Positions 29,939 to 61,000 of a stretch of 64,000 bases of DNA are shown piece by piece. The stretch is from Rhodocyclaceae bacterium (lineage in GTDB: Bacteria; Pseudomonadota; Gammaproteobacteria; Burkholderiales; Rhodocyclaceae). Each line of letters begins with the position of its first letter. Within the stretch, counting starts at the first letter, position 1. The notes below the pieces were generated by a model that saw only the letters and a program-made list of their open reading frames with translations, had not been told where the DNA came from and searched no databases. The stretch lies in contig VBWA01000023.1 of NCBI GenBank assembly GCA_006218025.1, forward strand, positions 1 through 64,000, read 5' to 3'. A program made the translations under genes and the position numbers.

Positions 29939-31548
29939 ATACGGCCATGTCGATACTTGAACAACTCGAGCGCAAGGGGATCAAGCCGGCGCACCTGACC
30001 GCCGACTCGCGGCGCGTGAGCGCCGGCGATGTCTTCGTCGCCTATCCCGGAGCGCAGGCCGATGGCCGCGACTTCATTGCGCAGGCGGTGGCCAACGGCG
30101 CCGCGGCCGTGATTGCAGAGGCCGGACGCAACGCAACTGCGAGAGTCGGCGCTGGCTCGCTCTGCGTACCTGGGATTCCGCTTCGCGGGCAGGCAACGCC
30201 GATTGTCGAAGTGACAGGGCTCGCGGCGCTCTCCGGCGAAATCGCGCACCTGGTGTACGGTCGTCCCTCCGAGCATCTCTGGCTCGCCGGTGTGACCGGC
30301 ACCAATGGCAAGACCTCGGTATCGCAATGGATCGCGCAGGCGATGAACGCCCTGCCGTATCTGCCGCCGGGCCGCCCCAAGGCAGATACAGCCAATAATA
30401 TGGAGTCGCGCAGCGACGAACAGTTGTCACCCCTTTCCACGGGAAAGGGGCCGGGGGAAAGGCGCCACAAGTGCGCCGTGATCGGCACGCTGGGCAACGG
30501 CTTCCTCGACTCGCTCGACGAAAGCCCCAACACCACGCCCGATGCCATCACCCTGCATGCGGCGCTCGCCGGCTTCGTTGCTCGCGGCGCGGAAGCCTGC
30601 GCGATGGAGGTTTCGTCGATCGGCCTCGACCAGGGGCGTGTCAATGGCGCGGCCTTCGACGTCGCCGTGTTTACCAATCTGACCCGCGACCACCTCGAAT
30701 ATCACGGCACGATGGAGGAGTATGCGGCGGCCAAGGAACTGCTGTTCCTGACGCCCGGCCTTGCCGCCGCCGTGCTCAACCTCGACGACCCTGTCGGGGT
30801 CGCGCTTGCCGCCAAGCTCAGGGGGCACGTGCGAACCATCGGCTATACGCTGGCCGGGGCCGACGGCATTGGCGCAGATGAAATCCTCCGCGCGGAAAAC
30901 CTGAACATGGGGGCCGCCGGCGTCGAGTTCGATGTGCGCGGCGTGCATTTCACGGCGCCCGTGGTGGGGCGCTTCAACGTTTCCAATCTGCTGGCGGTGA
31001 TCGGTGCGCTGCTGACGCGCAACGAGCGCCCCGAGGACATTGCTGCCGCCCTGCGCCGCATTCAGCCGCCGCCAGGACGCATGCAGGCGGTCGGCGGCGT
31101 GAATGAACCGCTGATCGTGGTGGACTACGCCCATACGCCGGACGCGATGGAAAAAGCGCTCGGCGTTCTGCGCGAAACGGCGGTGGCGCGCGGCGGACGG
31201 CTGATCTGCGTCTTCGGTTGCGGCGGCGAGCGCGACCCCGGCAAGCGGCCGCAGATGGGTGCGATTGCCGAGCGTCTGGCCGATCGCGTGGTCGTCACCA
31301 GCGACAACCCGCGCAAGGAAGATCCGCAAGCCATCATCGACGACATCCTCGCCGGGCTGCAGCGCGCGCCGAACGTCGAGATCGATCGCGGCCGCGCCAT
31401 TGCAGCTGCGGTGGCCGATGCGGATAGGCGCGACGTGATCCTGCTCGCCGGCAAGGGCCATGAGCCCTATCAGGAAATCGCCGGGGTGCGGCATGCATTC
31501 TCCGACCTCGATGCCGCAAAGTCGGCGCTGGCGGGACGGCGCTCATGA
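29935..31548 (+). CDS. murE: UDP-MurNAc-tripeptide synthetase MurE with an inserted palindromic element
   Basis: Adds meso-diaminopimelate to UDP-MurNAc-L-Ala-D-Glu in the cytoplasm. The 537 residues (family about 490-510) carry P-loop [28 protein letters not shown] and the DAP-specifying DNPRKEDP (in [13 protein letters not shown]). Between the P-loop helix (WIAQAMNAL) and the next strand ([10 protein letters not shown]) is a foreign-looking, Pro/Gly/Ser-rich stretch of about 35 residues encoded by a 94-bp two-hairpin element, in frame. It begins with GTG overlapping the ftsI stop, or ATG 29947. As an essential single-copy gene the product must tolerate the insert. Confidence 0.95.
30369..30462 (+). 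repeat. Two-hairpin palindromic element inside murE
   Basis: A 94-bp unit begins GGGCCGCCCCAAGG, then hairpin 1 GTCGC-GCA-GCGAC (30405-30417), GAACAG, TCACC, hairpin 2 CCCCTTTCC-ACG-GGAAAGGGG (30430-30450) and the end CGGGGGAAAGG. The murF copy has the same length and order of boxes. Reading in the murE frame is open and yields a low-complexity insert. Confidence 0.85.
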
Positions 31549-33023
31549 TGATGACCCTGCACGAGGCTGCCGCCGCCATCGCTGCCCGCGCGCAAGGCGC
31601 CGACGACGCCTTCAGCGGAGTCTCCACCGATTCGCGCAGCATCGCCGCCGGCGAACTTTTCGTCGCGTTGATCGGCGACAAGTTCGACGGCCACGCCTAC
31701 GTCGCCGACGTGCTCGCGCGTGGCGCCAATAGTGCCGCGGGCGCGGTGGTGAGCGAGGAGTTCGCCGCCGCCCATCCCGATCTGCCGCTGATCTGCGTCG
31801 CCGACACGCGCCTGGCGCTCGGTGCGCTGGCGGCGCAGTGGCGCGGACGATTCACGATTCCGCTGCTGGGCATCACCGGCAGCAACGGCAAGACCACGGT
31901 CAAGGAAATGTGCGCGGCGATTCTGCGTGCGCAGTTCGGCAGCGCGGACTCCGTGCTGGCCACTGTCGGCAACCTCAACAACGACATCGGCCTGCCGCTG
32001 ACCCTGCTCAGGTTGCGCGCCTCGCACCGCGCCGCGGTGATCGAGATGGGCATGAACCATACCGGAGAGATCGACTATCTGACGCGCCTCGCGCAACCTT
32101 CCGTGGCGCTGGTGAACAACGCCCACCGCGCGCACCTCGAGGGTCTCGGCTCGGTGCAGGATGTCGCGCTGGCCAAGGGCGAAATATTCACCGGGCTGGG
32201 GGCGGATGGCGTCGCCGTATTCAATGCCGACGACGCACATGCCGATATCTGGCGCGAACTTTCGCGCGATCGTCGTCAGCTGACGTTTGGCCTCGACCAG
32301 CCCGCCGACGTACAAGGACAGTTCACCAGTCACGGCCTCGGCGGGGAATTGCAACTTGCCACCCCGTGGGGAGCGCTCACGGTGACGCTGGCCGTGCCGG
32401 GCAGCCACAACGCCAGCAATGCCTGTGCGGCAGCGACGGCGACACTGGCAGCAGGCGCGTCGCTCGGCGCGGTCGAACAGGGACTGACAGGCTTTGCCGG
32501 CATCAAGGGCCGGCTGCAACGGCGAGCCGGTCGCGAAGGCGCGTGCGTGGTGGATGACAGTTACAACGCCAATCCCGATTCGATGCGGGCCGCGATCGAC
32601 GTGCTGGCGTCGGTGCCGGGCAGGCGCATCCTGGTCATGGGCGACATGGGCGAGGCGGGGGCTGCCGCAGGGCAGTTCCACGACGAGATCGGCGGCTATG
32701 CCAAGAGCCACGGCATCGACCGCCTGCTGTGCCTCGGCGAATTGTCGGCGGCGGCGGCACACAATTTCGGCGCGGGCGGCCAGCACTTTCCGCGCGTCGA
32801 AGACTTGATAAAAACCCTGCTGGCCGAGCTCGAGGCGCAGACCACGGTGCTGGTCAAGGGATCGCGCTTCATGCGCATGGAGCGCGTCGTCGACGCGATC
32901 GTGGACAGCGCCGACGCAGGGCCGTCCCAAGGCGGCGCAAGCCATCAACCGGAGCGGGCGCAGCCCGCGAACAGCCGTCACCCCCTTCCCGGGGAAGGGG
33001 GCGGGGGAAAGGTAAATGAATAA
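31545..33023 (+). CDS. murF: UDP-MurNAc-tripeptide:D-Ala-D-Ala ligase MurF
   Basis: Last cytoplasmic ligase of the UDP-MurNAc-pentapeptide. The 492-residue protein has P-loop [45 protein letters not shown] and a C-terminal domain ending normally near [11 protein letters not shown]. The last 35 or so residues ([17 protein letters not shown] and on) come from a 94-bp palindromic element covering the 3' end of the gene. It starts in an ATGA overlap with murE and ends on the first base of mraY. Confidence 0.95.
32919..33012 (+). repeat. Two-hairpin palindromic element at the 3' end of murF
   Basis: A 94-bp unit in the same orientation as the murE copy: GGGCCGTCCCAAGG start, hairpin 1 GCGGGC-GCA-GCCCGC (32954-32968), GAACAG, TCACC, hairpin 2 of CCCCCTTCC / GGAAGGGGG (32981-33001), and end CGGGGGAAAGG. 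It forms the C-terminal codons of murF in a different reading frame from the murE copy. The AAAGG end lies 11 nt before mraY and could serve as its ribosome-binding site. Confidence 0.87.
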
Positions 33024-34192
33024 TGCTGCTTGAACTCGCTCAATGGCTGGCCAAGGATCTCCGCGCCTTCAACGTCTTCGGCTACATCACGCTGCGCGCG
33101 GTGCTGGCGACCATGACCGCACTGGCGATTTCCTTCGTCTTCGGTCCGGCGGTGATTCGCTGGCTGGCGGCGAAGAAGATCGGCCAGTCGGTGCGCAGCG
33201 ACGGGCCGCAAACGCATCTGATCAAGGCCGGCACGCCGACCATGGGCGGCGCGCTGATCCTGATCTCGCTCGGCGTGTCCACGCTGCTGTGGGCGGATCT
33301 GTCCAATCGCTTCATCTGGATCGTGCTGATAGTCACCTTCGGCTTCGGCGCGATCGGCTGGGTCGATGACTGGCGCAAAGTGGTCTATCGCAATCCTGCC
33401 GGGCTTTCGGCCCGCTCCAAGTTCTTCTGGCAGTCCGTGGTGGGCCTGGTCGCCGCAATCTACCTCGCATTCTCGATCTCGGCGCCCAACAACGAAAAAG
33501 TCGTCCAGCTGTTCTTCCAGTGGGTGTCCTCCGGCTTCACGCTGGAACTGCCGCAGCAGACCGCCCTGATCGTGCCCTTCTTCAAGAGCGTGACCTATCC
33601 GCTCGGCATGTTCGGCTTCATCCTGCTGACTTACCTGGTGATCGTCGGTAGCAGCAATGCAGTGAATCTGACCGACGGCCTCGACGGCCTCGCGATCATG
33701 CCGACGGTGCTGGTCGGCGCCGCGCTGGGCATCTTCACCTACGTCGCGGGCAACTCGGTGTTCTCCAAATACCTGCTGCTGCCCTACATTCCGGGCGCCG
33801 GCGAGCTGACGGTATTCTGCGGCGCGCTGGCCGGTGCCGGGCTCGGCTTCCTGTGGTTCAACGCCTATCCCGCCGAGGTGTTCATGGGCGATGTCGGCGC
33901 CCTGGCCCTCGGCGCGGCGCTCGGCGCGGTGGCCGTGGTCGCCCGCCAGGAAATCGTGCTGTTCATCATGGGCGGCGTCTTCGTCGCCGAGACCCTGTCG
34001 GTGATGCTCCAGGTCGGCTACTTCAAGTACACCAAGAAGCGCTACGGCGAAGGCCGGCGGATCCTGCTCATGGCGCCGCTGCATCACCACTTCGAGCAGA
34101 CCGGGTGGAAAGAGACGCAGGTGGTGGTGCGCTTCTGGATCATCACGATTCTGCTCGTGCTGTTCGGCCTGTCGACGCTGAAGATACGATGA
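33023..34192 (+). CDS. mraY: Phospho-MurNAc-pentapeptide-transferase MraY
   Basis: A 389-residue polytopic enzyme that makes lipid I from UDP-MurNAc-pentapeptide and undecaprenyl phosphate. Ten or so TMs with the family motifs [42 protein letters not shown] and [14 protein letters not shown]. Starts at ATG 33023 directly after murF; AAAGG from the palindromic element is the nearest ribosome-binding sequence. Confidence 0.97.
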
Positions 34193-35598
34193 ATCTCGCC
34201 GGCAAACACGTCCTCGTTCTCGGCCTCGGCGAATCGGGGTTGGCCTCTGCGTGCTGGTGCGCGCGGCAGGGCGCACGGGTGCGGGTGGCCGATACGCGTA
34301 CGGCGCCGCCGTATCTGGACGAGTTGAATCGCCGTGTCACCAGCGCCGACTCGCAGCTTGAATTCGTTGCAGGCGAGTTCGACAAGGCGCTGCTCGACGG
34401 CATCGACCTGCTGGTGTTGTCGCCGGGACTCTCGGGCGGGCTGATGGTGGTGATCCACGCGCGCGCCGCCGGGATTCCGGTGGTCGGAGAGATCGAATTG
34501 TTCGCCCAGGGCCTGCGCAGTCTGAATTCGAGCGCTCCGGTGCTGGCGATTACCGGCACCAACGGCAAGACCACCACCACCGCGCTGACCGGGCATCTGC
34601 TGCGCGGCACGGGGAAGACGGTCGGTGTCGCCGGCAACATTTCTCCTGCGGCCCTGACGGCATTGATGGATGCGCTGGATGCCAATGCCCTGCCGCAGAT
34701 CTGGGTGCTCGAGCTGTCGAGTTTCCAGCTGGAAACCACCGAGACGCTGAATGCCGCCGCGGCAACGGTGCTCAACATTTCCGACGACCATCTCGATCGC
34801 TACATCGACCTCGACGAATACGCATCGGCCAAGGCCAAGGTCTTTCAGAGCGCCGAGGGCGCGCCCGGCGTCCAGGTGCTGAATCGCGACGATCCGCGCG
34901 TGTGCCGCATGACGCTGCCCGACCGCCAGATCATCAGCTTCGGCCTCGACGCACCCGCCGGCGAGGATGACTTCGGCCTGCGCCAGCATCGGGGCGAAGT
35001 CTGGCTGGCGCAGGGTCAGCGCCTGTTGCTGCCGGTCTCCGAATTGCCGCTGGCCGGGCTGCACAATGCGGCCAACGCGATGGCGGCGCTGGCGCTGTGC
35101 AGCGCGCTCGGCTTCGATGCAGAAACCTTGCTGCCGGCTTTGCGCAGTTTCCGCGGCTTGCCGCACCGGGTCGAGCAAGTGGCCGAGATCGGCGGTGTGA
35201 CCTGGTATGACGATTCCAAGGGCACCAACGTCGGCGCCACGGTCGCCGCACTGAATGGCATTGGCGGACTGGGGCGCAAGATCGTGGTGATTTTGGGGGG
35301 TGACGGGAAAGGACAAGACTTTTCTCCGCTTGAGAAAGCCGTGGCGACGCACGCGCGCGCCGCAGTGCTGATCGGCCGCGACGGGCCGCTGATCGAGAAG
35401 GTCATCGTCGGCACCGGGGTGGCGATCGAAAACGCAGCCGACATGGGTGATGCCGTGCGGCGGGCCCGGCGCAGGGCGCAGCCGGGCGATGCCGTACTGC
35501 TGTCGCCGGCCTGCGCCAGCTTCGACATGTTCCGCAATTACGAGCATCGGGCGCAGGTATTCGTCGCCGCAGTGCACGCACTGGAGAGCGAAGCGTGA
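34189..35598 (+). CDS. murD: UDP-MurNAc-L-alanine:D-glutamate ligase MurD
   Basis: A 469-residue cytoplasmic ligase starting [20 protein letters not shown] (Rossmann-like UDP-binding domain), with P-loop [29 protein letters not shown] and a C-terminal domain containing [17 protein letters not shown]. The ATG overlaps the mraY stop (ATGA); longer upstream frames are shadows of mraY. Confidence 0.97.
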
Positions 35599-36758
35599 GC
35601 CGCGCCTATGCCGCGCCGGCGCAGCGCGCGCCCGCCGAGCTCGACGCCTTCCTGCTGTGGCCGGCTGTCGGGCTGCTGCTGCTGGGATTGGTGATGGTGT
35701 ATTCGTCCTCGATCGCGATGGCCGAGGGCAGCCGCTTCACCGGCAACCAGTCGGCCTATTTCCTGTTCCGCCACGCGGTGTTTCTCTGCGTCGGATTGGT
35801 CGCCGGCATCATGGCCTTCCAGATTCCGTTGCGCCTGTGGCAGCAGGCGGCACCCTGGCTGTTCCTGACCGGAGTCGTGCTGCTGCTGCTGGTGCTGATT
35901 CCCCATGTCGGCCGTTCGGTCAACGGCGCCCAGCGCTGGATCGGCCTCGGCCCGATCAACCTGCAGCCTTCCGAATTGATGAAGCTTTTCGTCGTGCTCT
36001 ATGCCGCCGACTACACCACGCGCAAGCTCGACGACATGGGCAGTTTCCTGCGCGGTTTCGGGCCGATGGCACTGGTCATGGTGCTGGTCGGATTCCTGCT
36101 GCTGAAGGAGCCGGACTTCGGCGCGCTGGTGGTGATCCTCTGCATCGCGACCGGCATCCTGTTTCTCGGCGGCATCAATGCGCGGGTGTTCGGCGTGCTG
36201 GTGGTGGTGCTGGCGGTCAGCTTCGTCATCATGATCTGGGTCTCGCCCTATCGGCGCGAGCGCATCTTCGGTTTCATGGACCCCTGGCAGGACGCCTTCG
36301 GCAAGGGCTACCAGCTCTCGCACGCCCTGATCGCCTTCGGCCGCGGCGAGTGGTTCGGCGTCGGGCTCGGCGCCAGCGTCGAGAAGCTGTTCTATCTGCC
36401 CGAGGCGCATACCGATTTCCTGCTGGCGGTGATCGCCGAGGAACTCGGCTTCGTCGGTGTCTGCGTCGTGGTCGGGCTGTTCGCCCTGCTGGTGCAGCGC
36501 TCCTTCGCCATCGGCCGCCAGGCGCTGGTGCTCGGCCGCGTGCATTCCGGTCTGGTCGCGCAAGGCATCGGCATCTGGCTCGGCGTCCAGGGCTTCATCA
36601 ACATGGGCGTGAACATGGGCCTGTTGCCGACCAAGGGTCTGACCCTGCCGCTGATGAGCTTCGGCGGTTCGGGCATCGTCGCCAACTGCCTGGCGCTCGG
36701 CATCCTGTTGCGGGTGGACTGGGAGAATCGACAACTGATGCGGGGCCAGCAGGTATGA
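35595..36758 (+). CDS. ftsW: Septal peptidoglycan glycosyltransferase FtsW
   Basis: A 387-residue SEDS-family protein with about ten TMs, polymerising lipid II at the septum together with FtsI. Motifs include [30 protein letters not shown], and [21 protein letters not shown] followed by FAVIAEE-like [17 protein letters not shown] start overlaps the murD stop (GTGA). Confidence 0.97.
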
Positions 36759-37813
36759 GCAAGACGCTCCTCGTCATGGCCGGCGGCACGGGCGGGCACA
36801 TCATGCCGGGCCTCGCCGTGGCCGAGCATCTGCGCGAGCAGGGCTGGAAAATCGCCTGGATGGGCAATCCGGATGGCATGGAAGCAAAGCTGACCACTGG
36901 GCGCGGCTACGAGATGGCCTGGGTGCATTTCACGGCCCTGCGCGGCAAGGGCCTGCTGCGCAAATTGCTGCTGCCTTTCAACCTGCTGCGCGGCTTCAGC
37001 CAGGCGTGGTCGCAGCTCAAGCGCATCCAACCCGACGTCGTGCTCGGCATGGGCGGCTACGTCAGCTTTCCCGGCGGCATGATGGCCGTGCTGCGGGGCA
37101 TTCCGCTGCTGCTGCACGAGCAGAATTCGGTGGCCGGCCTGGCCAACCGCGTGTTGGCCGGTGTCGCCGACCGCATCCTGACCGGTTTTCCCGAGGTGCT
37201 GAAGAAGGGTATCTGGGTGGGTAATCCGGTACGTCCGGAAATCGCCGTGCTGCCAGCGCCGACTATTCGCTACGCGCAGCATAGCGGCCCGCTGCGTGTG
37301 CTGGTGGTGGGCGGCAGCCTCGGCGCGCAGGCCTTGAACGAAGTTGTGCCGAAGGCGCTGGCGCTGATTGCGGAAGACCGGCGACCGGTGGTGCTGCATC
37401 AGGCGGGCGAGAAGCATCTGCCGCTGCTGAAAAGCCTCTACCTCTCGGCGGGTGTCAGCGCCGACTGCGTGGCCTTCATCAACGACATGGCCGGAGCCTA
37501 CGACTGGGCCGATCTGGTGATCTGCCGCGCCGGCGCACTGACCGTGGCGGAACTGGCGGCGGCCGGCGTGGCCAGCCTGCTGGTGCCTTTCCCGCATGCG
37601 GTGGATGACCACCAGACCTCGAACGCACGCTTTCTCAGTACGGCCGGCGCCGCGATCCTGCTGCCGCAGGATGAGCTGACGCCGGCGCGACTGGCCGAGA
37701 TCGCGAATCTGCCGCGGAGCCAACTCGCCCAAATGGCCGAAAAGGCCCGTGAGCTGGCGCGGCCCGAGGCCACGGCGGCCGTGGCGCAGGCTTGCGCGGA
37801 GCTGGCCAAATGA
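36755..37813 (+). CDS. murG: Lipid II synthase MurG
   Basis: A 352-residue GT28 glycosyltransferase on the inner face of the membrane, adding GlcNAc to lipid I. N-terminal loop [54 protein letters not shown] and the UDP-GlcNAc site [15 protein letters not shown] with [16 protein letters not shown] overlaps the ftsW stop (ATGA). Confidence 0.97.
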
Positions 37814-37823
37814 AAGGCACGCC

Positions 37824-39250
37824 ATGAAACACAAAGTCAAACGCATCCACTTCGTCGGCATCGGCGGCTCGGGCATGTCGGGCATCGCCGAGGTGCTGGC
37901 GAATCAGGGCTACGAGGTCAGCGGGTCCGATTTGAGCGAGAGTGCGACGACGCGGCGCCTGGCGGCGCTGGGCATCCGCATTGCGATCGGCCACAGCGCG
38001 CAGAACGCCGCGACGGCCGATGCGGTCGTGGTGTCCACCGCCGTGCGCGAAGACAACCCGGAAGTGGTCATGGCGCGCGAGCGCCGCGTGCCGGTGGTGC
38101 CGCGGGCGCAGATGCTGGCGGAGCTGATGCGCATCAAGCAGGGCATCGCGATCGCAGGCACCCATGGCAAGACGACGACCACCAGCCTGGTCGCCAGCCT
38201 CCTGGCTGAGGGCGGCCTCGATCCGACCTTTGTCATCGGCGGCCGGCTGAATTCCGCGGGGGCCAATGCGAAGCTGGGCAGCGGCGAATTCCTGGTGGCC
38301 GAGGCCGACGAGTCGGATGCCTCCTTCCTGTATCTGTCGCCCGTGGTTTCGGTGGTCACCAACATCGACGCCGATCACATGGAAACCTACGGCCATGATT
38401 TCGGCCGGCTGAAGCAGGCCTTCGTCGATTTCCTGCATCGCCTGCCCTTCTATGGCGTGGCCGTGGTCTGCGGCGACGACGCCAACGTGCGCGAGATCAT
38501 GCCGCGCGTGGCGAAGCAGATCGTCACCTACGGCATCGACAGTGAGGTCAACTTCCGCGCCGAAGACGTGGTGGCCGATGGCGGCACGATGCGCTTCACC
38601 TGTGTGCGCACCAACGGCGGCGTCAGTCGCTTGCCCATCGTGCTCAATCTGCCGGGGCGGCACAATGTGCTCAACGCGCTGGCCGCCATTGCGGTGGCGA
38701 CAGAAGTCGGCGTTGGCGACACGGCGATCATCCGGGCCCTGGCCGAGTTCCGGGGCGTCGGCCGGCGCTTCCAGCGCTACGGCGAGCTTGCCTGCCCGGC
38801 GGGCGGAACATTTACCCTGGTCGATGACTACGGCCATCATCCGGTGGAAATGGCCGCGACGCTGGCGGCGGCGCGCGGCGCTTTCCCCGGCCGCCGGCTG
38901 TTCCTGGCGTTTCAGCCGCATCGCTACACGCGCACACGGGATTGTTTCGAGGATTTCGTCAAGGTGCTGTCCGGGGTCGATGCGCTGGTGCTCGGCGAAG
39001 TGTATGCCGCCGGCGAGGCACCGATCATCGCCGCCGACGCCCGCGCGCTGGTGCGTGCCTTGCGCGTTGCCTGCGCGCAAAGCGCCATTCCAGGCATGCA
39101 AGGCACCGGCAAGGTCGAGCCGATCTTCGTCGAAGACATCGCGGCCATGCCGGCAGCGATTCTCGCCGCGGTGCGCGACGGCGACGTGGTGATCACCATG
39201 GGCGCCGGTTCCATCGGCGGCGTGCCGGGGCGATTGAGCGGGGCAGCTGC

Positions 39251-39254
<4 letters not shown>
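37824..39254 (+). CDS. murC: UDP-MurNAc:L-alanine ligase MurC
   Basis: A 476-residue ligase making UDP-MurNAc-L-Ala. Starts [21 protein letters not shown]-loop [57 protein letters not shown]. The ATG at 37824 follows murG by 10 nt; murB overlaps its stop. Confidence 0.97.
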
Positions 39255-41883
<2,629 letters not shown>

Positions 41884-41884
<1 letters not shown>

Positions 41885-43116: not shown

Positions 43117-43142
43117 TTCAGTGGGTCTAAAAGGAGGCGAGT

Positions 43143-47056: not shown

Positions 47057-47089
47057 CTTTCTCTGAAGCCAGTTTCTGACTGATAAAAA

Positions 47090-49777
<2,688 letters not shown>

Positions 49778-49778
49778 G

Positions 49779-50282
49779 TTGAGCCAGGAGCGGCACCCGA
49801 CACTGATCGAGGACGGCGAGTCCGTCCTCATTCTCGACCAGACACGCTTGCCGCGCGAAGCGGTGATGCTGCGGCTGGCCACCCTGGAAGATGTCGCCCA
49901 CGCCATTCGCGTCATGCAGGTACGCGGTGCGCCGCTGATCGGAGCTACCGCCGCCTACGGCGTGGCACTAGGGCTGACGGACGATGCCGGCGATGCACGT
50001 CTCGTCGAGGTGATCGATACGCTTGCCGCGACGCGGCCGACCGCCGTCAATCTGCATTGGGCCCTGGCACGTATGCGCCGTGTGCTGCAAGAGTCGGCGC
50101 TGGCGACACGGCGCCAAGCCGCCTGGAACGAAGCGCGCGCCATCGCCACGGAAGACAAGGCCGCCAATGCGAAGGGGGTGCGCGTGCCGCGCCCCCCAAG
50201 GGGAAATCGGACAGCCATCCCCCCAGCCCCCTTCCCGGGGAAGGGGGTGACTATTTCAGGCAGGCTGCGCCTGCAATCGTGA
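49779..50282 (+). CDS. mtnA: Split mtnA, N-terminal half (methylthioribose-1-phosphate isomerase)
   Basis: A 167-residue product whose first 130 or so residues are the MtnA N-terminal domain: [57 protein letters not shown]. Then a palindromic element takes over and the frame ends at TGA 50280-50282 before the catalytic part. It starts at TTG 49779, 1 nt after secA. The stop overlaps a GTG that opens the frame of the C-terminal half (GTGA). MtnA isomerises methylthioribose-1-P to methylthioribulose-1-P in thioadenosine salvage. Either a pseudogene or a two-piece enzyme split near the domain boundary. Confidence 0.8.
50182..50274 (-). repeat. Two-hairpin palindromic element interrupting mtnA
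   Basis: On the minus strand: hairpin 1 GCAGGC-GCA-GCCTGC (50260-50274), spacer, TCACC with hairpin 2 CCCCCTTCC / GGAAGGGGG (50227-50247), CTGGGGGG, then a further box with CCCCTTGGGG near 50190-50203. Orientation is opposite to the murE and murF copies, and the GGGCCG box preceding hairpin 1 there is absent. Exact ends are uncertain. The insertion shifts the mtnA frame. Confidence 0.75.
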
Positions 50283-50830
50283 ATGTCATGACCCATTGCA
50301 ACGCCGGACGCCTGGCGACCGTTGAACATGGCACGGCGCTCGCGCCGGTGTATGCGGCGCACGCGGCCGGTTTGCCGGTTCATGTCTGGGTCTCCGAAAC
50401 GCGACCGCGCAACCAGGGGCTGCTCACCGCCTGGGAACTCGCCGAGACCGGCGTGCCGCATACCCTGATTGCCGACAACGCCGCGGGCCTGCTGTTGATG
50501 CAGGGCAAGGTCGATCTGGTGATCGTCGGCGCCGACCGCATTGCCGCCAACGGCGACACGGCGAACAAGGTCGGCACCTATCTCAAGGCACTCGCCGCGC
50601 GCGCCCATGGCGTGCCCTTCTATGTCGCGGCGCCGCTGTCGACCATCGATTTCGCCTGCGCTTCGGGCGCTCAGATACCCATCGAGGAACGCGCCGCGGA
50701 TGAACTCGGCGCTGGCAACACACCGGTCGCGAACCCGGCTTTCGACGTGACGCCGGCAGACCTGATCAGCGGCATCATCTCCGAGCGCGGCATTGCCCGG
50801 GCCGGCGAGCTTGGGCAGTGGAAGCCATGA
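50279..50830 (+). CDS. mtnA: Split mtnA, C-terminal half with the catalytic residues
   Basis: A 183-residue frame from GTG 50279 holding the catalytic domain of methylthioribose-1-P isomerase: [19 protein letters not shown] with the active Cys, [43 protein letters not shown] with the catalytic Asp, and [15 protein letters not shown]. All expected motifs to the C-terminus are present and no stop or frameshift occurs inside, which argues against long decay. The aldolase gene starts in an ATGA overlap with its stop. Confidence 0.8.
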
Positions 50831-51471
50831 GCGATCCCGCCACTGGTTTGGCCAGCAAGGTGCTCGCCACGGCGCGGGCGATGAACGCCTCGGGCATCAA
50901 TCGCGGCAGCGCAGGGAATGTCAGCGCGCGCTGCGAAGGCGGCTTTCTGATCACGCCGACCGGCATGGCCTACGACGACTGCGAGCCTGCCGACATGGTG
51001 AAAGTCGGCGCTGATGGTACGCCGACCGGCCGCCGCAAGCCTTCATCCGAATGGCGTTTCCATCGCGACATCTATGCCGCATGGCCCGAGGCGGGCGCCG
51101 TGGTGCATACCCACTCGCCCTTCGCCACCGCGCTGGCCTGCCAGGAGCAGGGTGTGCCGGCGTTTCATTACATGGTGGCGCGCTTCGGCGGCGCCGACGT
51201 GCGCTGCGCCGCGTATGCCACTTTTGGCAGCCAGGAACTGTCGGATGCCATCATCAGCGCCCTTGCCGGTCGCTGCGCCTGCCTGATGGCGCATCACGGC
51301 CTGGTGGTGTTCGGCCGCGACGTGGATCACGCACTGGCCCTGGCGATCGAGCTGGAAACTTTGTGCGAGCAGTATTGGCGGGTGCTGCAACTGGGCGCGC
51401 CAAAGCTGCTGCCGTCCGACGAAATGACGCGCGTGATCGCGAAGTTCGCCACCTACGGACAGCAGGACTGA
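50827..51471 (+). CDS. Class II aldolase (FucA/Ald2-like), probable DHAP-shunt aldolase
   Basis: A 214-residue zinc aldolase of the FucA/AraD family. [42 protein letters not shown] (split over helices; catalytic Glu in SSEWRFH), zinc ligands VHTHSP and [20 protein letters not shown]. It is close to E. coli FucA in pattern. Coupled to mtnA, the best guess is Ald2, which splits methylthioribulose-1-P or deoxyribulose-1-P into DHAP and an aldehyde; a methylthioribulose-1-P dehydratase (MtnB, same fold) is the alternative. mtnP or mtnK is not in the window. Confidence 0.83.
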
Positions 51472-51496
51472 ACAGCCCCGCAGCCCGACGCGCCTC

Positions 51497-52495
<999 letters not shown>

Positions 52496-52627
52496 GGTGG
52501 CTGCCGTCGATGGACAAGAAGGCGGGAATTATACCGACCAGGCGTTCTGGCTTGCGGCAAGGCTACTGCGCCGTGGAGCCCGTCTTTGCTGCTATTCTGG
52601 GCGTCATGTCCAGCGCTGGTTGATCGC

Positions 52628-55600
52628 GTGAACGCACTTTCCCTGAAATCGATTCTCACTACCGATGTAGTGACTTGCCGCACCGAAGAGGTGCTGGGCG
52701 AGGTGCTGCGCGTCATGGAGCGCAATCGGATCAGCTGCGTTGTAGTGGTCGATGAAGAACGGCGTCCCTGCGGCATTTTCACCGAGCGCGATGCCGTGGC
52801 CCTGCTGGCCGCGGACGGGCTTTCTCCGACAAGACCCGTTGGCGAGGTGATGAGTTGCCGGGTGGTGAGCTTTTCCCTTCCGTTCGATTCGCGCGATGCG
52901 TACCGGCTCATGCTGGCGAACGATGTGCGCCATCTGGTGGCCGTGGATCCCGGGGGCCGGGTCGCGGGCGTGCTGACCGAGGCGGATCTTCTTGCGGAGT
53001 TCGGCGACGTCGATCCGCTCGCTGGCGGCGCATCGCCGGGCGACGCCCTGCGTCGCGAAGCCGTCGGGTCCGGTGGGCGCGACGGCGAGTTCGGCCGGCA
53101 CATGATTCTGGGTGGCGTCTTCGACCGCATCGGTGACGGCATTTTCCTGGTGGACGCCGCGAGCGGTGTCTATGTCGAAGCCAACGACAGGGCTTGCGAG
53201 TTTCTTGGCTATTCGCGCGACGAAATTCTTGGCCGCCACGTCTGGGAGATTTCCACCAGTTTTGCGGATACCGCGGCGTGGCGTGCAAGAAATGCGGATT
53301 TGAGCGACAAAGTGCGAGTGGTCAATACCGACTTTCGGCGCCGCGACGGCAGCCTGCTCCCGGTCGAGGTTCGCGTTTATCAGGTGCACGATGGCGAGCG
53401 CCTGCTGCATGTAGCGATTTTTCGCGACGTCTCGGCCACGCGCAAGATCGAAGCCGCGCTGCGCGAGGGCGAACGCTACTATCGGCATGTGATCGACAGC
53501 GCCGTCGACGGCTATTTCGCCATGGACCCGCAGCGCCGCTTCATTGAGGTCAATGACACGCTGTGCACTCTGTTCGGCTATCCACGCGAGGAATGGCTGG
53601 GACAAACGCCGATCGGCTTCATCGCCGAGGAGAGCCGTGCCGAGCTGATCGCCCAGATGCAGCGCATCGACACCACCGATCGCCGCCGTTATCAACTGCT
53701 TGCCCGGCGCAAAGATGGCAGCACATTCCCCATCCTGCTCAACAACACGACCCATCGCAACGAGGAGGGCGAGATCGTCGGTTCTTTCGGCTTTATCACC
53801 GATCTGACGCCGATTGTCGAAGCGCAGCGCGCCGTGGCCGAATCGGAGCGCGAGCTGCGCGGAATTCTCGACGACCTGCAGGATACCTACTACCGTACCG
53901 ACCAGACCGGCACGATCGTGCGCGCTTCGCGCTCCGTCGAACAACTGCTCGGCTATACGGCGGAGGAGATGCTGGGCCGCAAGCTGGCCGATTTTTACTG
54001 CTCGCAGGCCGACCGCGACGAGTTTCTCGCCAGGATGCAGGCCAATGGCGGACATATCGTCGGTGGCGAGTCGCGCTTGCGGCACAAGGACGGCCACGAG
54101 CTGTGGGTACTGACCACGGCGCATTTCATTCGTGACGCCGCCGGCAATATCGTCGGCGTCGAGGGCACCACCCGCGACAACACCCGCCAGCGTCGCGCCG
54201 AAGAGGAGTTGCGACTGGCGGCAAAGGTGTTCGAGAGCAGCGGCGAAGCGATCATGATCACCGACGCCGAAGGCTGCATGATCTCGGTTAACCACGCGTT
54301 TTCAAGGATTACAGGCTATGCCGCCGCCGATGCCGTCGGCCGCAACGCCAGCGTGCTGGCGTCAGGCAGGCATGGCCGCGAGTTCTTTGCCGAGATGTGG
54401 CGCGAGATGCTCGATTCCGGATACTGGCATGGCGAGATATGGAATCGGCGCCGCAATGGCGAGGTCTTTCCCGAGTGGCTGGGCATTTCGTCGGTGCGCG
54501 ATGCGAATGGAAGGATCACGCATTTTGTCGGGATATTCTCCGACATCAGCGAACGCAAGGCGGCCGAAGCCAAGATCGCGTTTCTCGCCCATCACGATCC
54601 GCTGACGGGCCTGCCCAACCGTCTGCTGCTGAAGGATCGCATGGAGCAGGCCATGGTTCACAGCGAGCGCAGCGGCAACAAGGTGGCGCTGTTGTTTGTC
54701 GATCTCGATCGCTTCAAGGCGGTGAATGATGCCTTCGGCCATCCGGTGGGTGATGCGCTGTTGCGCGATGCGGCGCAGCGACTGCTGGACTGCGTGCGCG
54801 ACTCCGACACGATCAGCCGTCATGGCGGTGACGAATTTCTGGTGGTGCTCACGGATATGACCAGTTCCGAAGTGCCGGCCCAGATCGCCGGCAAGATAAT
54901 GGCGGCGCTGGGCGAACCGTTTCACATTGAAGGGCACGAGGCGACGATCTCCGCCTCGGTCGGCATTGCGGTATATCCGGAAGACGGCGCGGCGTTCGAC
55001 GAGCTGCTGAAGAAGGCCGACATCGCCATGTACCACGCCAAGGAAGCCGGTCGCAACGCCTTCCGTTTCTACACCGAGCGCATGAACGCAGATGCGCAGG
55101 CAAGGCTGGATCTGCACAGCCGCCTGCGCCGCGCGGTTGAGCGCGGGGAGTTCGTACTGCACTATCAGCCGCTGGTCGATCTGAGGAGCGGCCGCATCGT
55201 CGGCGGCGAAGCGCTGCTGCGCTGGCAGAGCCCCGAGCACGGGCTGATCGGGCCGGAGCATTTCATTGCCGCCGCTGAGCACAGCGGCCTGATCGTGCCG
55301 CTCGGCGAATGGGTGTTGCAGGAAGCCTGCCGTGAGCTCGCGCACTGGCACGCGCAGGGCTACCTGGAGCTTTCAGTGGCGGTGAATATCTCCGCCATCC
55401 AGTTTCGCCGCGGCGATGTCGAGGAGACCGTGCTGCGCGCGCTGGATGCCGCAGGCGCGACACCTGCGGCGCTGGAACTGGAACTTACCGAGTCGATCCT
55501 GATCGACGGCGCCGAACAGGTGCTGGCGACCATCACGCGCCTGCAGGCGCTGGGTGTGAGGCTGGCGATCGACGATTTCGGTACCGGCTATTCCAGCCTC

Positions 55601-55873
55601 GCCTACCTCAAGCGCTTCGCGGTGGACAAGCTGAAGATCGATCAGTCATTCGTCCGCGACATCGTGACCGATCAGGACGACGCGGCGATCGTGCGCGCCG
55701 TGATCCAGATGGCCCGCAGCCTCGGCCTGAAGGTGCTGGCCGAAGGCGTCGAGAGCGAAGCGGTGGCCGCCGAACTGCGCGCCATGGATTGCGATCTGGT
55801 GCAGGGCTACCATTTCGGCCGGCCCATGCCGGCCGCAGAATTCCGTCGCCTGATCGGCACGGAACCGGGCTAG
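52628..55873 (+). CDS. CBS-PAS-GGDEF-EAL c-di-GMP signalling protein
   Basis: A 1081-residue cytoplasmic protein. In order: two CBS domains (about 8-60 and 75-125; SILTTDVVTCRTEE, GIFTERDAVALLA, VAGVLTEADLLAEF), four PAS domains (about 160-270, 285-395, 410-520, 530-645), GGDEF (about 650-810, RHGGDEF intact at 733-737) and EAL (about 830-1075, GGEALLRW with EAL at 861-863). CBS pairs bind adenine nucleotides, so energy charge may feed into c-di-GMP turnover. It starts at GTG 52628; upstream frame is non-coding. Divergent from fbp. Confidence 0.93.
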   Translation: MNALSLKSILTTDVVTCRTEEVLGEVLRVMERNRISCVVVVDEERRPCGIFTERDAVALLAADGLSPTRPVGEVMSCRVVSFSLPFDSRDAYRLMLANDVRHLVAVDPGGRVAGVLTEADLLAEFGDVDPLAGGASPGDALRREAVGSGGRDGEFGRHMILGGVFDRIGDGIFLVDAASGVYVEANDRACEFLGYSRDEILGRHVWEISTSFADTAAWRARNADLSDKVRVVNTDFRRRDGSLLPVEVRVYQVHDGERLLHVAIFRDVSATRKIEAALREGERYYRHVIDSAVDGYFAMDPQRRFIEVNDTLCTLFGYPREEWLGQTPIGFIAEESRAELIAQMQRIDTTDRRRYQLLARRKDGSTFPILLNNTTHRNEEGEIVGSFGFITDLTPIVEAQRAVAESERELRGILDDLQDTYYRTDQTGTIVRASRSVEQLLGYTAEEMLGRKLADFYCSQADRDEFLARMQANGGHIVGGESRLRHKDGHELWVLTTAHFIRDAAGNIVGVEGTTRDNTRQRRAEEELRLAAKVFESSGEAIMITDAEGCMISVNHAFSRITGYAAADAVGRNASVLASGRHGREFFAEMWREMLDSGYWHGEIWNRRRNGEVFPEWLGISSVRDANGRITHFVGIFSDISERKAAEAKIAFLAHHDPLTGLPNRLLLKDRMEQAMVHSERSGNKVALLFVDLDRFKAVNDAFGHPVGDALLRDAAQRLLDCVRDSDTISRHGGDEFLVVLTDMTSSEVPAQIAGKIMAALGEPFHIEGHEATISASVGIAVYPEDGAAFDELLKKADIAMYHAKEAGRNAFRFYTERMNADAQARLDLHSRLRRAVERGEFVLHYQPLVDLRSGRIVGGEALLRWQSPEHGLIGPEHFIAAAEHSGLIVPLGEWVLQEACRELAHWHAQGYLELSVAVNISAIQFRRGDVEETVLRALDAAGATPAALELELTESILIDGAEQVLATITRLQALGVRLAIDDFGTGYSSLAYLKRFAVDKLKIDQSFVRDIVTDQDDAAIVRAVIQMARSLGLKVLAEGVESEAVAAELRAMDCDLVQGYHFGRPMPAAEFRRLIGTEPG

Positions 55874-55877
55874 CCGG

Positions 55878-57638
55878 CTACTTTCCCTTCGTCCACGAAT
55901 CCTTCAGCGTCACCGCGCGGTTGAACACCGGCGCACCGGCTTTGGAGTCGAGGCGGTCAGCGACGAAATAGCCGTGGCGCTCGAACTGGAAGCGGTCTTC
56001 GGCGGCCGCGTCCTGCAGCGCCGCTTCGAGTTGCGCGGTGATGACGACCTTCGAATTCGGGTTGAGATCGGCGATGAAGTCGCTCCCATCCGCGCCGGGT
56101 GCCTCGGCGGCGAACAGGCGGTCGTACAGGCGCACTTCGGCGGCATAGGCGTGCTTCGCCGAGACCCAGTGGATATTGCCCTTGACCTTGTAGTTGTCGG
56201 AGCCCGGCGTGCCGGATTTGGAATCGGGCATGTATTCGCAATGTATTGCCGTGATCCTGCCGTCGGCATCCTTGTCGCAGCCAATGCACTTGATCACGAA
56301 GCCGTAGCGCAGGCGCACGGTGTTGCCGGGGAACAGCCGGAAGTAGCCCTTGGACGGCGCTTCCATGAAGTCCTCGCGCTCGATCCAGAGTTCCTTCGAA
56401 AACAGCACCGGGCGCTTGCCCCACTCGGGCTTTTGCGGATGATTGGGGGCGAGGCATTCTTCTTCCTGCCCTGCCGGGTAGTTGTCGATGACCAGCTTGA
56501 CCGGATCGAGCACGGCGATGCGGCGCGGCGCCGTTTCGTTGAGGTGCTCGCGCTGGCATTCTTCCAGCACGCTGATGTCGATCCAGGAATCCGACTTGGT
56601 GACGCCGTTCATTTCGTTGAAGCGGCGGAAGGCTTCGGGCGTGAAGCCGCGGCGGCGCGCCCCGACCAGGGTCGGCAGGCGCGGATCATCCCAGCTGTCG
56701 ACGTAGCCCTCCTCGACCAGCTGGATCAGCTTGCGCTTGGATAGCACGACGTAGGAAAGATTCAGCCGGGCGAATTCGATCTGCTGCGGCAGCGGCGTAT
56801 TGACGCAATCGAGCTCGGCCAGCCGCGTCAGCAGCCAGTCGTAGAAGGGGCGCTGATCCTCGAATTCCAGGGTGCAGATGGAGTGGGTGATGTTCTCCAG
56901 CGCATCCTCGATGGGATGGGCGTAGGTGTACATCGGATAGATGCACCAGGTGTCGCCGGTGGCATGGTGGGTGGCGTGGCGGATGCGGTAGATGGCCGGG
57001 TCGCGCAGGTTGATGTTGCCCGAGCTCATGTCGACCTTGGCGCGCAGGATGTGCGTGCCGTCGGCGAACTCGCCGGCCTTCATGCGGCGAAACAAATCGA
57101 GATTCTCGGTCGGGGTACGATCCCTGTACGGCGAGTTCTTCCCGGCCTCGGTCAGCGTGCCGCGGCTGGCACGCATTTCGTCGGCGGATTGCGAATCGAC
57201 GTAGGCATGGCCGGCTTCGATCAGCCTCTCGGCGAAGTCGTACATCCACTGGAAATAGTCGGAGGCGAAATACTGGTTGATCGTGCCCGCATTTTCCCAA
57301 CTGAAACCCAGCCAATGCACGGCGTCGATGATGGAGTCGACATACTCCTGCTCTTCCTTTTCCGGATTGGTGTCATCGAAGCGCAAGTGGCAGGCGCCGC
57401 CGTAATCCCGCGCCAACCCGAAATTCAGGCAGATCGACTTGGCATGGCCGAAGTGCAGGTAGCCGTTGGGCTCCGGCGGGAAGCGGGTACGGATTTTTGC
57501 CGTGTCGCCAGCGCCGACTTTCTGCTGTGCGGCCGGGCCGGGTTTGCCCGACCAGTGGCGAGTGGCATAGACATCGGCGGCCAGATCGGCATCAATGATG
57601 TGACGAATGAAGTTGGAAGGTTTTTCAATATCAGCCAT
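55878..57638 (-). CDS. glnS: Glutaminyl-tRNA synthetase
   Basis: A 586-residue class I aminoacyl-tRNA synthetase. HIGH-type motif PPEPNGYLHFGHAKSICLNF, ATP-site KMSKS variant VVLSKRKLIQLVEEG, and the C-terminal anticodon-binding beta barrels. ATG 57638 (MADIEKPSNFIRHIID) is preferred to 57653 by family alignment. Ends 4 nt after the convergent GGDEF-EAL gene. Presence of GlnRS is normal for betaproteobacteria. Confidence 0.97.
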   Translation of the reverse strand: MADIEKPSNFIRHIIDADLAADVYATRHWSGKPGPAAQQKVGAGDTAKIRTRFPPEPNGYLHFGHAKSICLNFGLARDYGGACHLRFDDTNPEKEEQEYVDSIIDAVHWLGFSWENAGTINQYFASDYFQWMYDFAERLIEAGHAYVDSQSADEMRASRGTLTEAGKNSPYRDRTPTENLDLFRRMKAGEFADGTHILRAKVDMSSGNINLRDPAIYRIRHATHHATGDTWCIYPMYTYAHPIEDALENITHSICTLEFEDQRPFYDWLLTRLAELDCVNTPLPQQIEFARLNLSYVVLSKRKLIQLVEEGYVDSWDDPRLPTLVGARRRGFTPEAFRRFNEMNGVTKSDSWIDISVLEECQREHLNETAPRRIAVLDPVKLVIDNYPAGQEEECLAPNHPQKPEWGKRPVLFSKELWIEREDFMEAPSKGYFRLFPGNTVRLRYGFVIKCIGCDKDADGRITAIHCEYMPDSKSGTPGSDNYKVKGNIHWVSAKHAYAAEVRLYDRLFAAEAPGADGSDFIADLNPNSKVVITAQLEAALQDAAAEDRFQFERHGYFVADRLDSKAGAPVFNRAVTLKDSWTKGK

Positions 57639-57688
57639 GGTGGCGGTGGGCATTGCGGCGAAGCTGCAATTCTACCGGCAGGCGTAAA

Positions 57689-58081
57689 ATGACGACAATG
57701 AATTGGACAAGTCTTCTCGCCATCGGCGGCGGTGCCGTATTGGGCGCCTGGCTGCGCTACGGGCTGGGGCTCTGGCTGAATCCGGTGTTCGTCGCCGTGC
57801 CGATGGGCACGCTCGCCGCCAACCTGATCGGCGGCTATCTGGTCGGTGCCGCGGTGATGGTGTTCCACATCAATGCCGAGATGCCGGCCGAACTCAAGCT
57901 GTTCTTCATCACCGGCTTCCTCGGCGCGCTGACCACCTTCTCGACTTTTTCGGCGGAGGTGGTGCACCTGATCCAGAGCGCTCGCTACGGTTGGGCGGCA
58001 GGTGCCGCCGCCTTGCACCTGTTCGGTTCGCTCATCATGACCGGGCTGGGGATTTTCACCATCCACAAGCTGGCGCAATGA
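57689..58081 (+). CDS. crcB: Fluoride channel CrcB/Fluc
   Basis: A 130-residue four-TM protein exporting fluoride as a dual-topology dimer. GGGAVLGAWLRYGLGLWL, TLAANLIGGYLVGAAVM with the pore Asn, FFITGFLGALTTFSTFSAEVV with the Phe-box/TFST motif. No fluoride riboswitch fits in the 50 bp to glnS. hrpA starts in its stop codon (ATGA). Confidence 0.95.
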   Translation: MTTMNWTSLLAIGGGAVLGAWLRYGLGLWLNPVFVAVPMGTLAANLIGGYLVGAAVMVFHINAEMPAELKLFFITGFLGALTTFSTFSAEVVHLIQSARYGWAAGAAALHLFGSLIMTGLGIFTIHKLAQ

Positions 58082-61000
58082 GGTTCGACCCCGAGGCGCG
58101 GCGGGCGGCGCGGCCCGCGCTGAGCTATGACGAAGCGCTGCCGGTGAATGTGCGGCGGCAGGAGATCGGCGCGGCCATACTCAAGAACCAGGTGGTGGTG
58201 ATCTGCGGCGAGACCGGCTCCGGCAAGACCACCCAGTTGCCCAAGATATGCCTTGAAATCGGCCGCGGGCTCAATGGCCTGATCGGCCACACCCAGCCGC
58301 GGCGCATCGCCGCGCGCGCCACCGCGACGCGCATCGCGCAGGAGCTGAAGTCCGAGCTCGGCCGCCATGTCGGCTTCAAGATCCGCTTCACCGACCGCGT
58401 CACCTCGGACAGCTACATCAAGCTGATGACCGACGGCATCCTGCTCGCCGAAACCCAGACCGACCCGCTGCTGCGACAGTACGACACGATACTGATCGAC
58501 GAAGCCCACGAGCGCAGCCTGAACATCGACTTCCTGCTCGGCTATCTCAAGCAGCTGCTGCCCAGGCGGCCGGACTTGAAGGTCATCGTCACCTCGGCGA
58601 CGCTCGACGCCGAGCGTTTCAGCAAGCACTTCGATGGTGCTCCTGTCATTGAAGTTTCAGGCCGACTGTATCCGATCGAAACGCGCTTCCGCCCCTTCGA
58701 CGAGAAGAAGGACAGCGACCTCAACGACGCCATCGTCGATGCCGTCGACGAAGCCCATCGCACGGGGCCCGGCGACGTGCTGGTGTTCCTGCCCGGCGAG
58801 CGCGAGATACGCGAGGCGGCTGAGGCGCTGCGTAAGCATCATCCACCCGGTCTCGAAGTGCTGCCTCTGTTTGCACGGCAGACCGCCGTCGAGCAGGCCC
58901 GCGTCTTCGCGTCGCACCAGGGGCAGCGCGTGGTGCTGGCGACCAACGTCGCCGAGACCTCGCTGACCGTGCCGGGCATCCGCTACGTGATCGACTCGGG
59001 GCTGGCGCGCGTCAAGCGCTACTCGCATCGCAGCAAGGTTGAGGCCCTGCAGGTCGAGCCGATTTCGCGCGCGGCGGCCAGTCAGCGCGCCGGGCGCTGC
59101 GGTCGGGTCTCGGCCGGCGTCTGCTTCAAGCTCTACGACGAGGAGGATTTCAATCAGCGGCCGGCCTACACGGAACCGGAGATCCTGCGCTCCAGCCTTG
59201 CCGGCGTCATCCTGCGCATGAAGTCGCTGCACCTGGGCGACGTCGAGGACTTCCCTTTCCTCGAAGCGCCGCTGCCGCGCATGATCGCCGACGGCTACCA
59301 ACTCCTGACGGAGTTGGGAGCTTTAACCACACCCCCTCCCAGCCTCCCCCGCCAGGCGGGGGAGGTGACCGATCAGCCCGCTGGCGCGGGAAATGAACAG
59401 TGGCAACTCACGCCACTTGGACACGAGCTGGCGAAACTGCCACTGGACCCGAAGATCGGCCGCATGATCCTCGCCGCACGGGAGCACAACTGCCTGCGCG
59501 AAGTGCTGATCATCGCCGCCGCGCTGGGCACCCAGGACCCGCGCGACCGGCCGCAGGAGCATGCCGCGACGGCCGATCAGGCCCACGCCAAGTGGAAGGA
59601 CGAGAAATCCGAGTTCCTTTCCTACCTGAAACTCTGGGCCGCCGGCGACGAAATCTGGAAGCACGAGACATCGAACAAGCAGCGGCAGTGGTGCCGGCAG
59701 AATTTCATCAACTGGTTGCGCCTGCGCGAGTGGCGCGACGTGCATGGCCAGCTGATGACCCTGTGCCACGAACACGGCTGGAAGGAGAACCAGATTCCCG
59801 CTTCCTACGAGGCGATCCACAAGGCGCTGCTGACCGGCCTGCTCGGCCACATCGGCCTAGTCAGCGAAGAAGACAAGAACTACCTCGGCGCGCGCGGCAT
59901 CCGCTTCTACATCCATCCCGGCTCGTCATTGATCAAGAAGGCCGGGCGCTGGATCGTCGCCGCCGAACTGGTGGAAACCTCGCGCCTGTTCGCGCGCTGC
60001 ATCGCGAAGGTCGAGCCGGAATGGCTGGAGCAGGTCGGCGCGCATCTGATCCGCAAGCATGTCTATGAGCCGCACTGGGAGAAGGGCCCGGGCCAGGTCG
60101 TGGCTTGGGAGCGCGTGACGCTGCACGGCCTGATGCTGCATGCCAAGCGGCGCGTGCATTACGGGCCGAGCGATCCGAAGCTCGCGCGCGAAATCCTGAT
60201 CCGCGAGGCGCTGGTCGAGGGTCAGGTCGGCGAAGACTGGGTGCGCAAGTGGCGCTTCTTCCAGCACAACGCCAAGCTCATGAAGGAAATCCAGGCGCTG
60301 GAGCACAAGTCGCGGCGGCCCGATGTGCTGGTCGATGACGAGCTGATTTACGCCTTTTACGACGACAGGATTCCCGAGGGCGTCATCACGCTGGCGGCCT
60401 TCGATCACTGGCGGCGCGAGGCCGAGGCCGCCAACCCGAAACTGCTTTGCCTGGAAAAGGAGCAGTTGATGCGCCACGAGGCGGCGGGCATTACGACCGA
60501 CGCTTTTCCGCCGGCACTGACCCATCGCGGCCAGAGCTTCAGGCTCAGTTACCACCATGACCCCGGCGCGGCGGACGACGGCGTCACGCTGACGTTGCCG
60601 CTGGCCGCGCTCAACCAGCTGCCGGCCAATCGCTGCGAATGGCTGGTGCCGGGCCTGCTCAAGGAAAAGATCCTCGCGCTGCTGAAGACGCTGCAACAGA
60701 AGTACCGCCATCGCCTGCAGCCGCTCGACGAGTTCGCCTCGGACTTCTGCGAGACCGAACATGATCTCGACGAGCCACTGGTGCGCGCGCTGACGCGAGC
60801 CGCGGAGGAGCATCTGGCGATGAAGCTGCCGCTCGACGCCTTGCGCAGCGGCGAGTTGCGCCCTCACCTGTTCATGAACTTCCGCCTCACCGACGAGCAT
60901 GGCGGCACGCTGGCCATTTCGCGCAACCTGGCCGAATTGCGTGCCGAGTATCGCGACCGCGTCGAGCAGGCCTATGCCGCGGCGGAAATGCAGCACGAGG

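Follow-up and report, generated by a model that had tools for sequence, protein, structure and literature searches.

A G+C-rich, three-hairpin palindromic element of Rhodocyclales, probably mobile and persisting where translation can cross it

Background

Coding-tolerant small palindromic elements are a kind of bacterial DNA that is already known. Rickettsia palindromic elements (RPEs), 105-146 bp long, occur in frame in genes of conserved proteins and also outside genes, and NEMIS 107, ERIC and YPAL are miniature inverted-repeat transposable elements (MITEs) whose open reading frames (ORFs) fuse to host ORFs; terminal inverted repeats are recorded for NEMIS and ERIC, and target duplications for all three (available part of PMC2229807). 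The GTAG and CGTC repetitive extragenic palindromes (REPs) lie near or in genes and between unidirectional genes, and can provide stop codons (Di Nocera et al. 2013, available part of PMC3733652). BRE of Bordetella has full-length copies of 75-91 bp, G+C-rich, often in tandem and usually between genes, some wholly within coding sequences and one listed for Azoarcus sp. EbN1; the available part of that account neither suggests a function for it nor examines reading frames (Hot et al. 2011, PMC3110155). In this study, we analysed a 64,000-nucleotide stretch of a Rhodocyclaceae bacterium (the window; positions 1 to 64,000 of contig VBWA01000023.1, assembly GCA_006218025.1), in which members of a family of palindromic elements of about 95-120 bp with three hairpins (H1, H2 and H3) are found in murE, murF, mtnA and an hrpA-type helicase gene. 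The family is real and far above chance, and its presence and absence at orthologous genes and gene joints suggest that Rhodocyclales harbour in it a mobile but non-autonomous palindromic element, rich in G+C, which probably persists where translation can traverse it.

We place the family among coding-tolerant small palindromic elements because its behaviour is partly that of RPEs, REPs, ORF-bearing MITEs and BRE, as far as the available parts of their accounts go. It resembles RPEs in its in-frame insertions in ORFs of conserved proteins (murE, hrpA, rsmB-like and mutL, each against empty orthologues) but differs, compared by description, in having three hairpins without terminal inverted repeats or a long stem-loop, in its non-Rickettsia host, and in its many copies at operon joints that read as coupled mini-ORFs. 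With REPs it shares palindromes near or in genes and between unidirectional genes, whereas it is longer and multi-hairpin, has no fixed tag (GTAG in 5 and CGTC in 14 of 28 copies), and no gene for a REP-associated tyrosine transposase (RAYT) was seen flanked by the repeat, with one partial Y1_Tnp match. As in NEMIS 107, ERIC and YPAL, small elements bring open frames joined to host ORFs; unlike those MITEs, it lacks terminal inverted repeats and a fixed-length target duplication. BRE is matched in size and habit, by description and not by sequence, by a second class of the family (betaproteobacterial tandems of 78-81 bp units, one triple in a single open frame), whereas the class 1 body, with H2 and GTCACC-H3, is distinct. 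The earlier note on this DNA had thought the family perhaps undescribed: in the open-licence PMC literature we found no description of the class 1 architecture, the mini-cistron behaviour or a copy-specific H1 stem, but BRE was already described in betaproteobacteria in 2011 (available part of PMC3110155).

Results and Discussion

Architecture and abundance

In class 1, the copy-specific arms of H1, each about 9 nt long, flank a constant inner loop, GGGCCGYCCC; H2 is a short, variable stem; and H3 is a C-rich/G-rich stem entered from GTCACC, with TCAC as the near-constant motif ahead of it, followed by a G-rich tail such as GGGGGAAGG. Covariation analysis indicates separate helices and not one long stem-loop. 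Thus the earlier description of TCACC leading into a C-rich/G-rich hairpin with a G-rich end was borne out, with three hairpins in place of two. Class 2 carries the same H1 on a different body (GCCCCCC..GGGGGGCAGCGAGC..GCGAGCGTGGGGGGC), and 6 of 37 loop matches were assigned to it by inspection. G+C is 0.71 in the copies vs 0.645 in the window, and fold-energy z-scores, weak evidence by themselves, are -2.47 (murE), -1.25 (murF), -1.12 (mtnA) and -0.49 (hrpA). No Rfam family matched the window at gathering thresholds. A longer form with extra sequence inside H3 (GGCGGGGTTTCGCGGAGCAC..GCCGGCCGGCTGTGCAAAGCCGGCCG) was observed at murE (locus L078), mtnA (L311) and the L032 joint in genome G028; in the murE and L032-joint cases the extra sequence is 72 nt, a multiple of 3.

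The window lies within contig C39 of its own genome (G000), a 4.44-Mb draft of 141 contigs with a completeness of 99.97, whose closest named relatives by MurE comparison are Rhodocyclales and Sulfuritalea metagenome genomes. Pattern searches of this genome gave 34 matches to an H3 pattern and 37 to an H1-loop pattern, and reversed-pattern controls gave 0. We analysed 36 of the loop matches (L052, close to a contig end, was excluded; L068 and L069 duplicate L057 and L058); 12 H3-only copies were kept from the H3 set, and L030, a variant loop close to a contig end, was excluded from frame tests. A covariance model trained on 28 copies, those of murE and murF among them, and searched against this genome and its relatives as the earlier note had advised, found 65 places here at E <= 0.01, and all 31 genomes of the Sulfuritalea-like genus (own included) matched at E <= 1e-4, with from at least 10 to at least 90 matches each and at least 1192 in total, up to 121 candidates having been scored per genome. 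Of 101 genomes searched, 65 contain the loop pattern (31/31 of the genus, 34/70 others); lone loop matches can be chance, as are two of 30 (L458 and L466, inside ordinary ORFs and coding for GRPK) in the one-contig genome G002. For 22 of the 36 loop copies, one or both of the two closest genomes lack the core.

Class 2 forms tandems of 78-81 bp units at L148, L349, L352 and L353, and units resembling it were found in 12 records of Burkholderia, Paraburkholderia, Variovorax and Azoarcus. Class 2 may also resemble repeats of Comamonadaceae. At L349 (G088) and L148 (Methyloversatilis universalis) the spacing is 78 nt, and the three units of L349 stand in frame in one ORF. The sequence GCCGGGCCGCCCCAAG is present in 66 IMG/VR stretches (L356-L421), whose 71 loop places include 43 class 2-like and 8 class 1-like; H1 pairing in these copies is 5.73 of 8, against 3.78 with arms swapped.

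Insertions within genes

All four copies named for the window by the earlier note are real: those of murE, murF and mtnA were found by the covariance model, and that of hrpA, which has only H2/H3-like parts and lies outside the model list, by insert comparison (Table 1). Alignment with orthologues having an empty site identified the murE, murF and hrpA copies as genuine insertions.

The murE insert of G000 adds 36 residues at a single codon, at which G013 and G017 also carry an element; among the 27 genomes in which the site was visible (a count omitting three loci that do not reach it), it is occupied in these 3 and plain in 24, including the closest, G028 and G010. Flanks of the G000 insert resemble G028 and not G013, so no sign is seen of a long exchange with a donor resembling G013. 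In an AlphaFold2 model of MurE with a mean predicted local distance difference test score (pLDDT) of 88.7, the sole segment below 50, residues 149-173, lies inside the insert, so the element is predicted to encode a disordered loop. In hrpA, 21 extra residues occur in G000 and G001, a different family element stands at the same site in G029, and 27 of 30 genomes are empty.

At murF the element lengthens the C-terminus, its tail GGGGGAAAGG occupying the position of the mraY ribosome-binding region in relatives, and the murF stop TAA (33021-33023) overlaps the mraY ATG at 33023 (TAATG, 33021-33025); this joint insert recurs in five assemblies. The murF-mraY joint (window 33000-33025; L182-L211) is a hot spot, where other species of the genus hold three unrelated palindromic repeats (the CGCAGAGGCGCAGAGG, CACAGAGGACACAGAG and CACGGCGACACGGCG types). 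The mtnA element is absent from G028 and in frame in G010, together with a nested insert; in G000 it is present but the N part is in a different frame, so mtnA is probably damaged in its own genome. Thus the view that host frames stay open holds for murE and hrpA but not for mtnA, and the murF copy is a C-terminal extension.

Across the own genome, nine ORFs read in frame through an element: murE, hrpA, rsmB-like (a class 2 insert), smc, mutL, a DnaQ-domain gene, an RNase II/R-like gene, ileS and cusA-like (murE and hrpA named from Pfam, the others from NCBIfam, some under the family cut-off). An empty orthologous site was found for four of them, murE, hrpA, rsmB-like (G028 and G010) and mutL (G010). 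In these two genomes, compared for four of the seven other ORFs (those of the RsmB-like, MutL, DnaQ-domain and RNase-like proteins), the DnaQ-domain and RNase-like proteins have a related insert in one or both. Elements also extend MurF, a UrtD-like and a LolD/MacB-like protein at the C-terminus, and SdhB, MetW and HpnE at the N-terminus. In G002, the element at L459 fuses an upstream frame to a CusA-like gene, and the resulting single open frame has 1004 codons or more. The proposed parallel to RPEs in a betaproteobacterium thus stands on the nine ORFs and four empty sites, although the element is not exclusively in genes.

Gene joints and the frame rule

The earlier note had found no copies between genes in the window; genome-wide this fails, as an automatic caller places 48 of the 61 own copies at joints between ORFs of the same strand. 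It had also reasoned that copies mostly between genes would sink the idea of coding tolerance. Copies are indeed mostly there, but that rule was too strict because between-gene copies often read as short coupled ORFs. The frame tests took 48 own sites, 44 of them called codirectional, and 13 further ones, covering at most 61 of the 65 model matches, the weakest not being taken in; the codon-based caller called the murE copy (L047) divergent, placed L049 in one ORF with a doubtful strand and counted mtnA (L004n) as a joint. Overlaps of the form ATGA or TGATG link many pairs of prokaryotic genes, which are possibly translationally coupled (available part of PMC6728339), and several native joints in relatives are overlapping ATGA pairs (e.g. 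L031, L038, L042, L050 and L055). Where such joints are filled, a short ORF often begins on the stop of the upstream gene and crosses the element.

For a distance test we selected, blind to the frame relation, copies whose upstream stop carries an NTG and whose next start, in the called frame, is an NTGA, drawing on both own sets and on G002 (30 of 33 loop matches analysed, the two chance matches left in denominators), a genome that played no part in forming the frame idea. This yielded 26 copies at 24 junctions, and the NTG-to-NTG distance is 2 mod 3 in all 26, in both orientations and over ten lengths (92, 107, 113, 116, 119, 122, 125, 128, 131 and 170 nt), therefore the short ORF terminates on the TGA of the next NTGA. 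The mini-ORF is open from end to end in 25 of 26, the exception being L043, and the orthologous pairs L452/L057 and L468/L053 show length differences of 6 and 63 nt, each divisible by 3. By a strict test, 28 of the 44 codirectional copies are coupled or in frame, against an indel control with a mean of 14.9 and a maximum of 21 in 300; at the 13 further sites it is 7 of 12 codirectional copies against 1.7, the observed count being reached in 0 of 500 controls. This control also counts in-frame fusions and hence understates the effect. A first, permissive coupling test (38/48) had been dropped since its mean control of 0.49 was too high, and the strict and frame-distance tests were used instead.

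We infer that the element would insert in genes and compact operon joints, and that insertions cutting translation, by polarity or by loss of stop-restart coupling, would be purged. Inserts read as a loop or tail, as an extension of the N-terminus or as a coupled mini-cistron would survive, and the G-rich tail (GGGGGAAGG) could serve the next gene as a ribosome-binding site. The family shows palindromic selfish DNA entering important genes in frame in bacteria other than Rickettsia, and it offers a simple rule, 2 mod 3 between overlapping stop and start codons, by which small mobile DNA could live in packed operons. With at least 1192 matches in 31 genomes, many presence/absence sites and a one-contig genome, the origin of intragenic palindromes, and whether they are tolerated or used, become directly testable.

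Origin of the H1 stem

Arms of H1 pair within copies at 7.8 of 9 positions, against 5.4 when swapped between copies (maximum 6.2 in 2000 trials), two-sided changes occur in 8 of 9 pairs, and covariation of the whole structure is 0.353, a value reached in 0 of 500 shuffles, whereas structures that were slid give at most 0.102. That such stems are maintained by ordinary selection on RNA or DNA structure in old, diverged copies, and not made on insertion, is quite possible, although we lean slightly away from it. This strong covariation across copies agrees with it, as do one change on both sides that separates the murE copy of G000 from those of G013/G017 and, among close orthologues, three arm changes that keep the pair through wobble (L032, L039 and L059) and one that gains a pair (L032). 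However, the few orthologue arm changes are mixed and favour neither side: three others break a pair (L035, L044 and L061) and three fall at already unpaired positions (L046, L064 and L059 against G010, which align poorly, were disregarded). Against selection, arm divergence is independent of the core, near-identical cores differing in their arms as much as distant ones; the four copy pairs with core distance <0.1, the only such pairs, differ by about 0.6 in the arms.

Because the arms are unrelated even between copies with near-identical cores and yet pair within each copy, the H1 stem appears to be set anew per insertion: the arms look as if fixed at or near that event, and a stem renewed at every insertion would, with less confidence than the rest, complete the mechanism proposed above. 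The 5' arm is native target sequence in L031 and L049 but not in others (e.g. L034, L037, L038, L045 and L064). A bolder version, which we regard as doubtful, would make the element a portable translated mini-cistron that enters ATGA joints in either orientation with a built-in frame (ribosomes stop, restart, cross and restart) and acquires a new H1 stem per insertion, partly from the target (L031 and L049), by fold-back copying of the flank.

Mobility, mode of spread and rival readings

Several observations weigh against a mobile element held where translation can cross it. Terminal inverted repeats are absent, the end 12 nt being complementary at only 1-7 of 12 positions (28 copies), and no fixed-length target site duplication was found, sites showing direct repeats of varying length or deletions; lengths of 24 (L055), 13 (L049 in G010) and 12 (L013n) given by the script are over-extensions by eye. 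Among 39 copies with an upstream NTG(A), 13 are without a downstream NTGA start in the searched range; four of these are in-frame fusions and three are coupled by strict chain (L021n, L473 and L486), and six (L063, L008n, L453, L463, L477 and L487) fail the rule. In G002 the strict test is weak, 17 of 27 against a mean of 13.2, reached in 7 of 500 controls. Lastly, the copies show no stop-codon depletion.

Since the copies have neither terminal repeats nor a fixed target duplication, it is presence and absence alone that argue for mobility. In a search for the single transposase family Y1_Tnp (PF01797), the genome gave one fragment, at a contig end, with no element in its 1737-bp locus; a RAYT partner was rejected as no element adjoins this lone fragment. 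Spread could instead proceed by homologous exchange between gene starts that share short ATGA or Shine-Dalgarno (SD) sequence, without a transposition enzyme. End direct repeats of variable length (0 to 13 nt where the case is clean) that fall on ATGA/SD motifs at some sites (e.g. L031, L050 and L055), and an L035 joint carrying a different copy in G028, are consistent with such exchange, but in-gene sites such as murE are without a start motif, and we consider it a rather unlikely route.

Less probable still is an ordinary intergenic repeat, a REP- or MITE-like RNA hairpin acting in mRNA stability or operon expression, whose read-through is a by-product of high G+C and short distances. The predominance of same-strand joints as called would suit it, and known REPs also lie between unidirectional ORFs and sometimes in genes (available part of PMC3733652). 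So would the undepleted stop codons: depletion as the cause of coding tolerance was rejected, with 121 open frames against a mean of 131.5 in 200 shuffles (minimum 120). Frame openness follows from the composition of the copies, and selection on landing sites would add the remainder. By-product openness, however, fails to predict a distance of 2 mod 3 in all 26 copies across ten lengths, and it leaves the in-frame gene inserts with empty orthologues unexplained. That the in-gene copies are assembly or annotation artefacts is hardly credible, even with an own genome in draft, given that inserts recur across assemblies (murE in three genomes, hrpA in two and a related one, the murF joint in five) and that one-contig G002 has the same family and frame rule.

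Features of the window

Table 1. Elements, host genes and other repeats in the window
Feature	Position	Strand	Remarks
murE	29935..31548	+	Pfam
Class 1 element in murE	30351..30462	+	covariance model 108.1 bits; net insert 108 nt = 36 codons
H1 of murE copy	30357..30389	+	arms 30357-30365 / 30381-30389 around GGGCCGCCCC (30369-30378)
H2 of murE copy	30405..30417	+	GTCGC GCA GCGAC
GTCACC, H3 and G-rich tail of murE copy	30426..30462	+	H3 30430-30438 / 30442-30450
murF	31545..33023	+	C-terminus lengthened through element
Class 1 element at 3' end of murF	32901..33012	+	covariance model 90.4 bits
mtnA	49779..50830	+	frame broken: N part ends at TGA 50280-50282, overlapped by GTG 50279; C part in other frame
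H2-H3 type element in mtnA	50215..50298	-	without H1 loop motif; covariance model 47.2 bits
hrpA-type helicase gene	57703..61875	+	Pfam
Degenerate element in hrpA	59329..59390	-	21-residue in-frame insert; outside covariance model list
21-mer AGTCGGCGCTGGCGACACGGC	11323, 18193, 31520, 38705, 50092, 61361	+	
21-mer AGTCGGCGCTGGCGACACGGC	15720, 24305, 34331, 37244, 57499	-	
Perfect 32-bp inverted repeat	5457..5488 / 5694..5725		arms 205 nt apart

Apart from the palindromic family, the window holds a perfect inverted repeat and 11 copies of the 21-mer AGTCGGCGCTGGCGACACGGC at <=3 mismatches, where 0.01 would be expected by chance (Table 1). In the genome the 21-mer occurs 524 times at <=2 mismatches, 269 forward and 255 reverse, with a control of 0, and some copies lie within genes (the end of murE, mtnA). 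It may be a genome-wide recognition motif, for example a DNA uptake or chromosome-architecture sequence.

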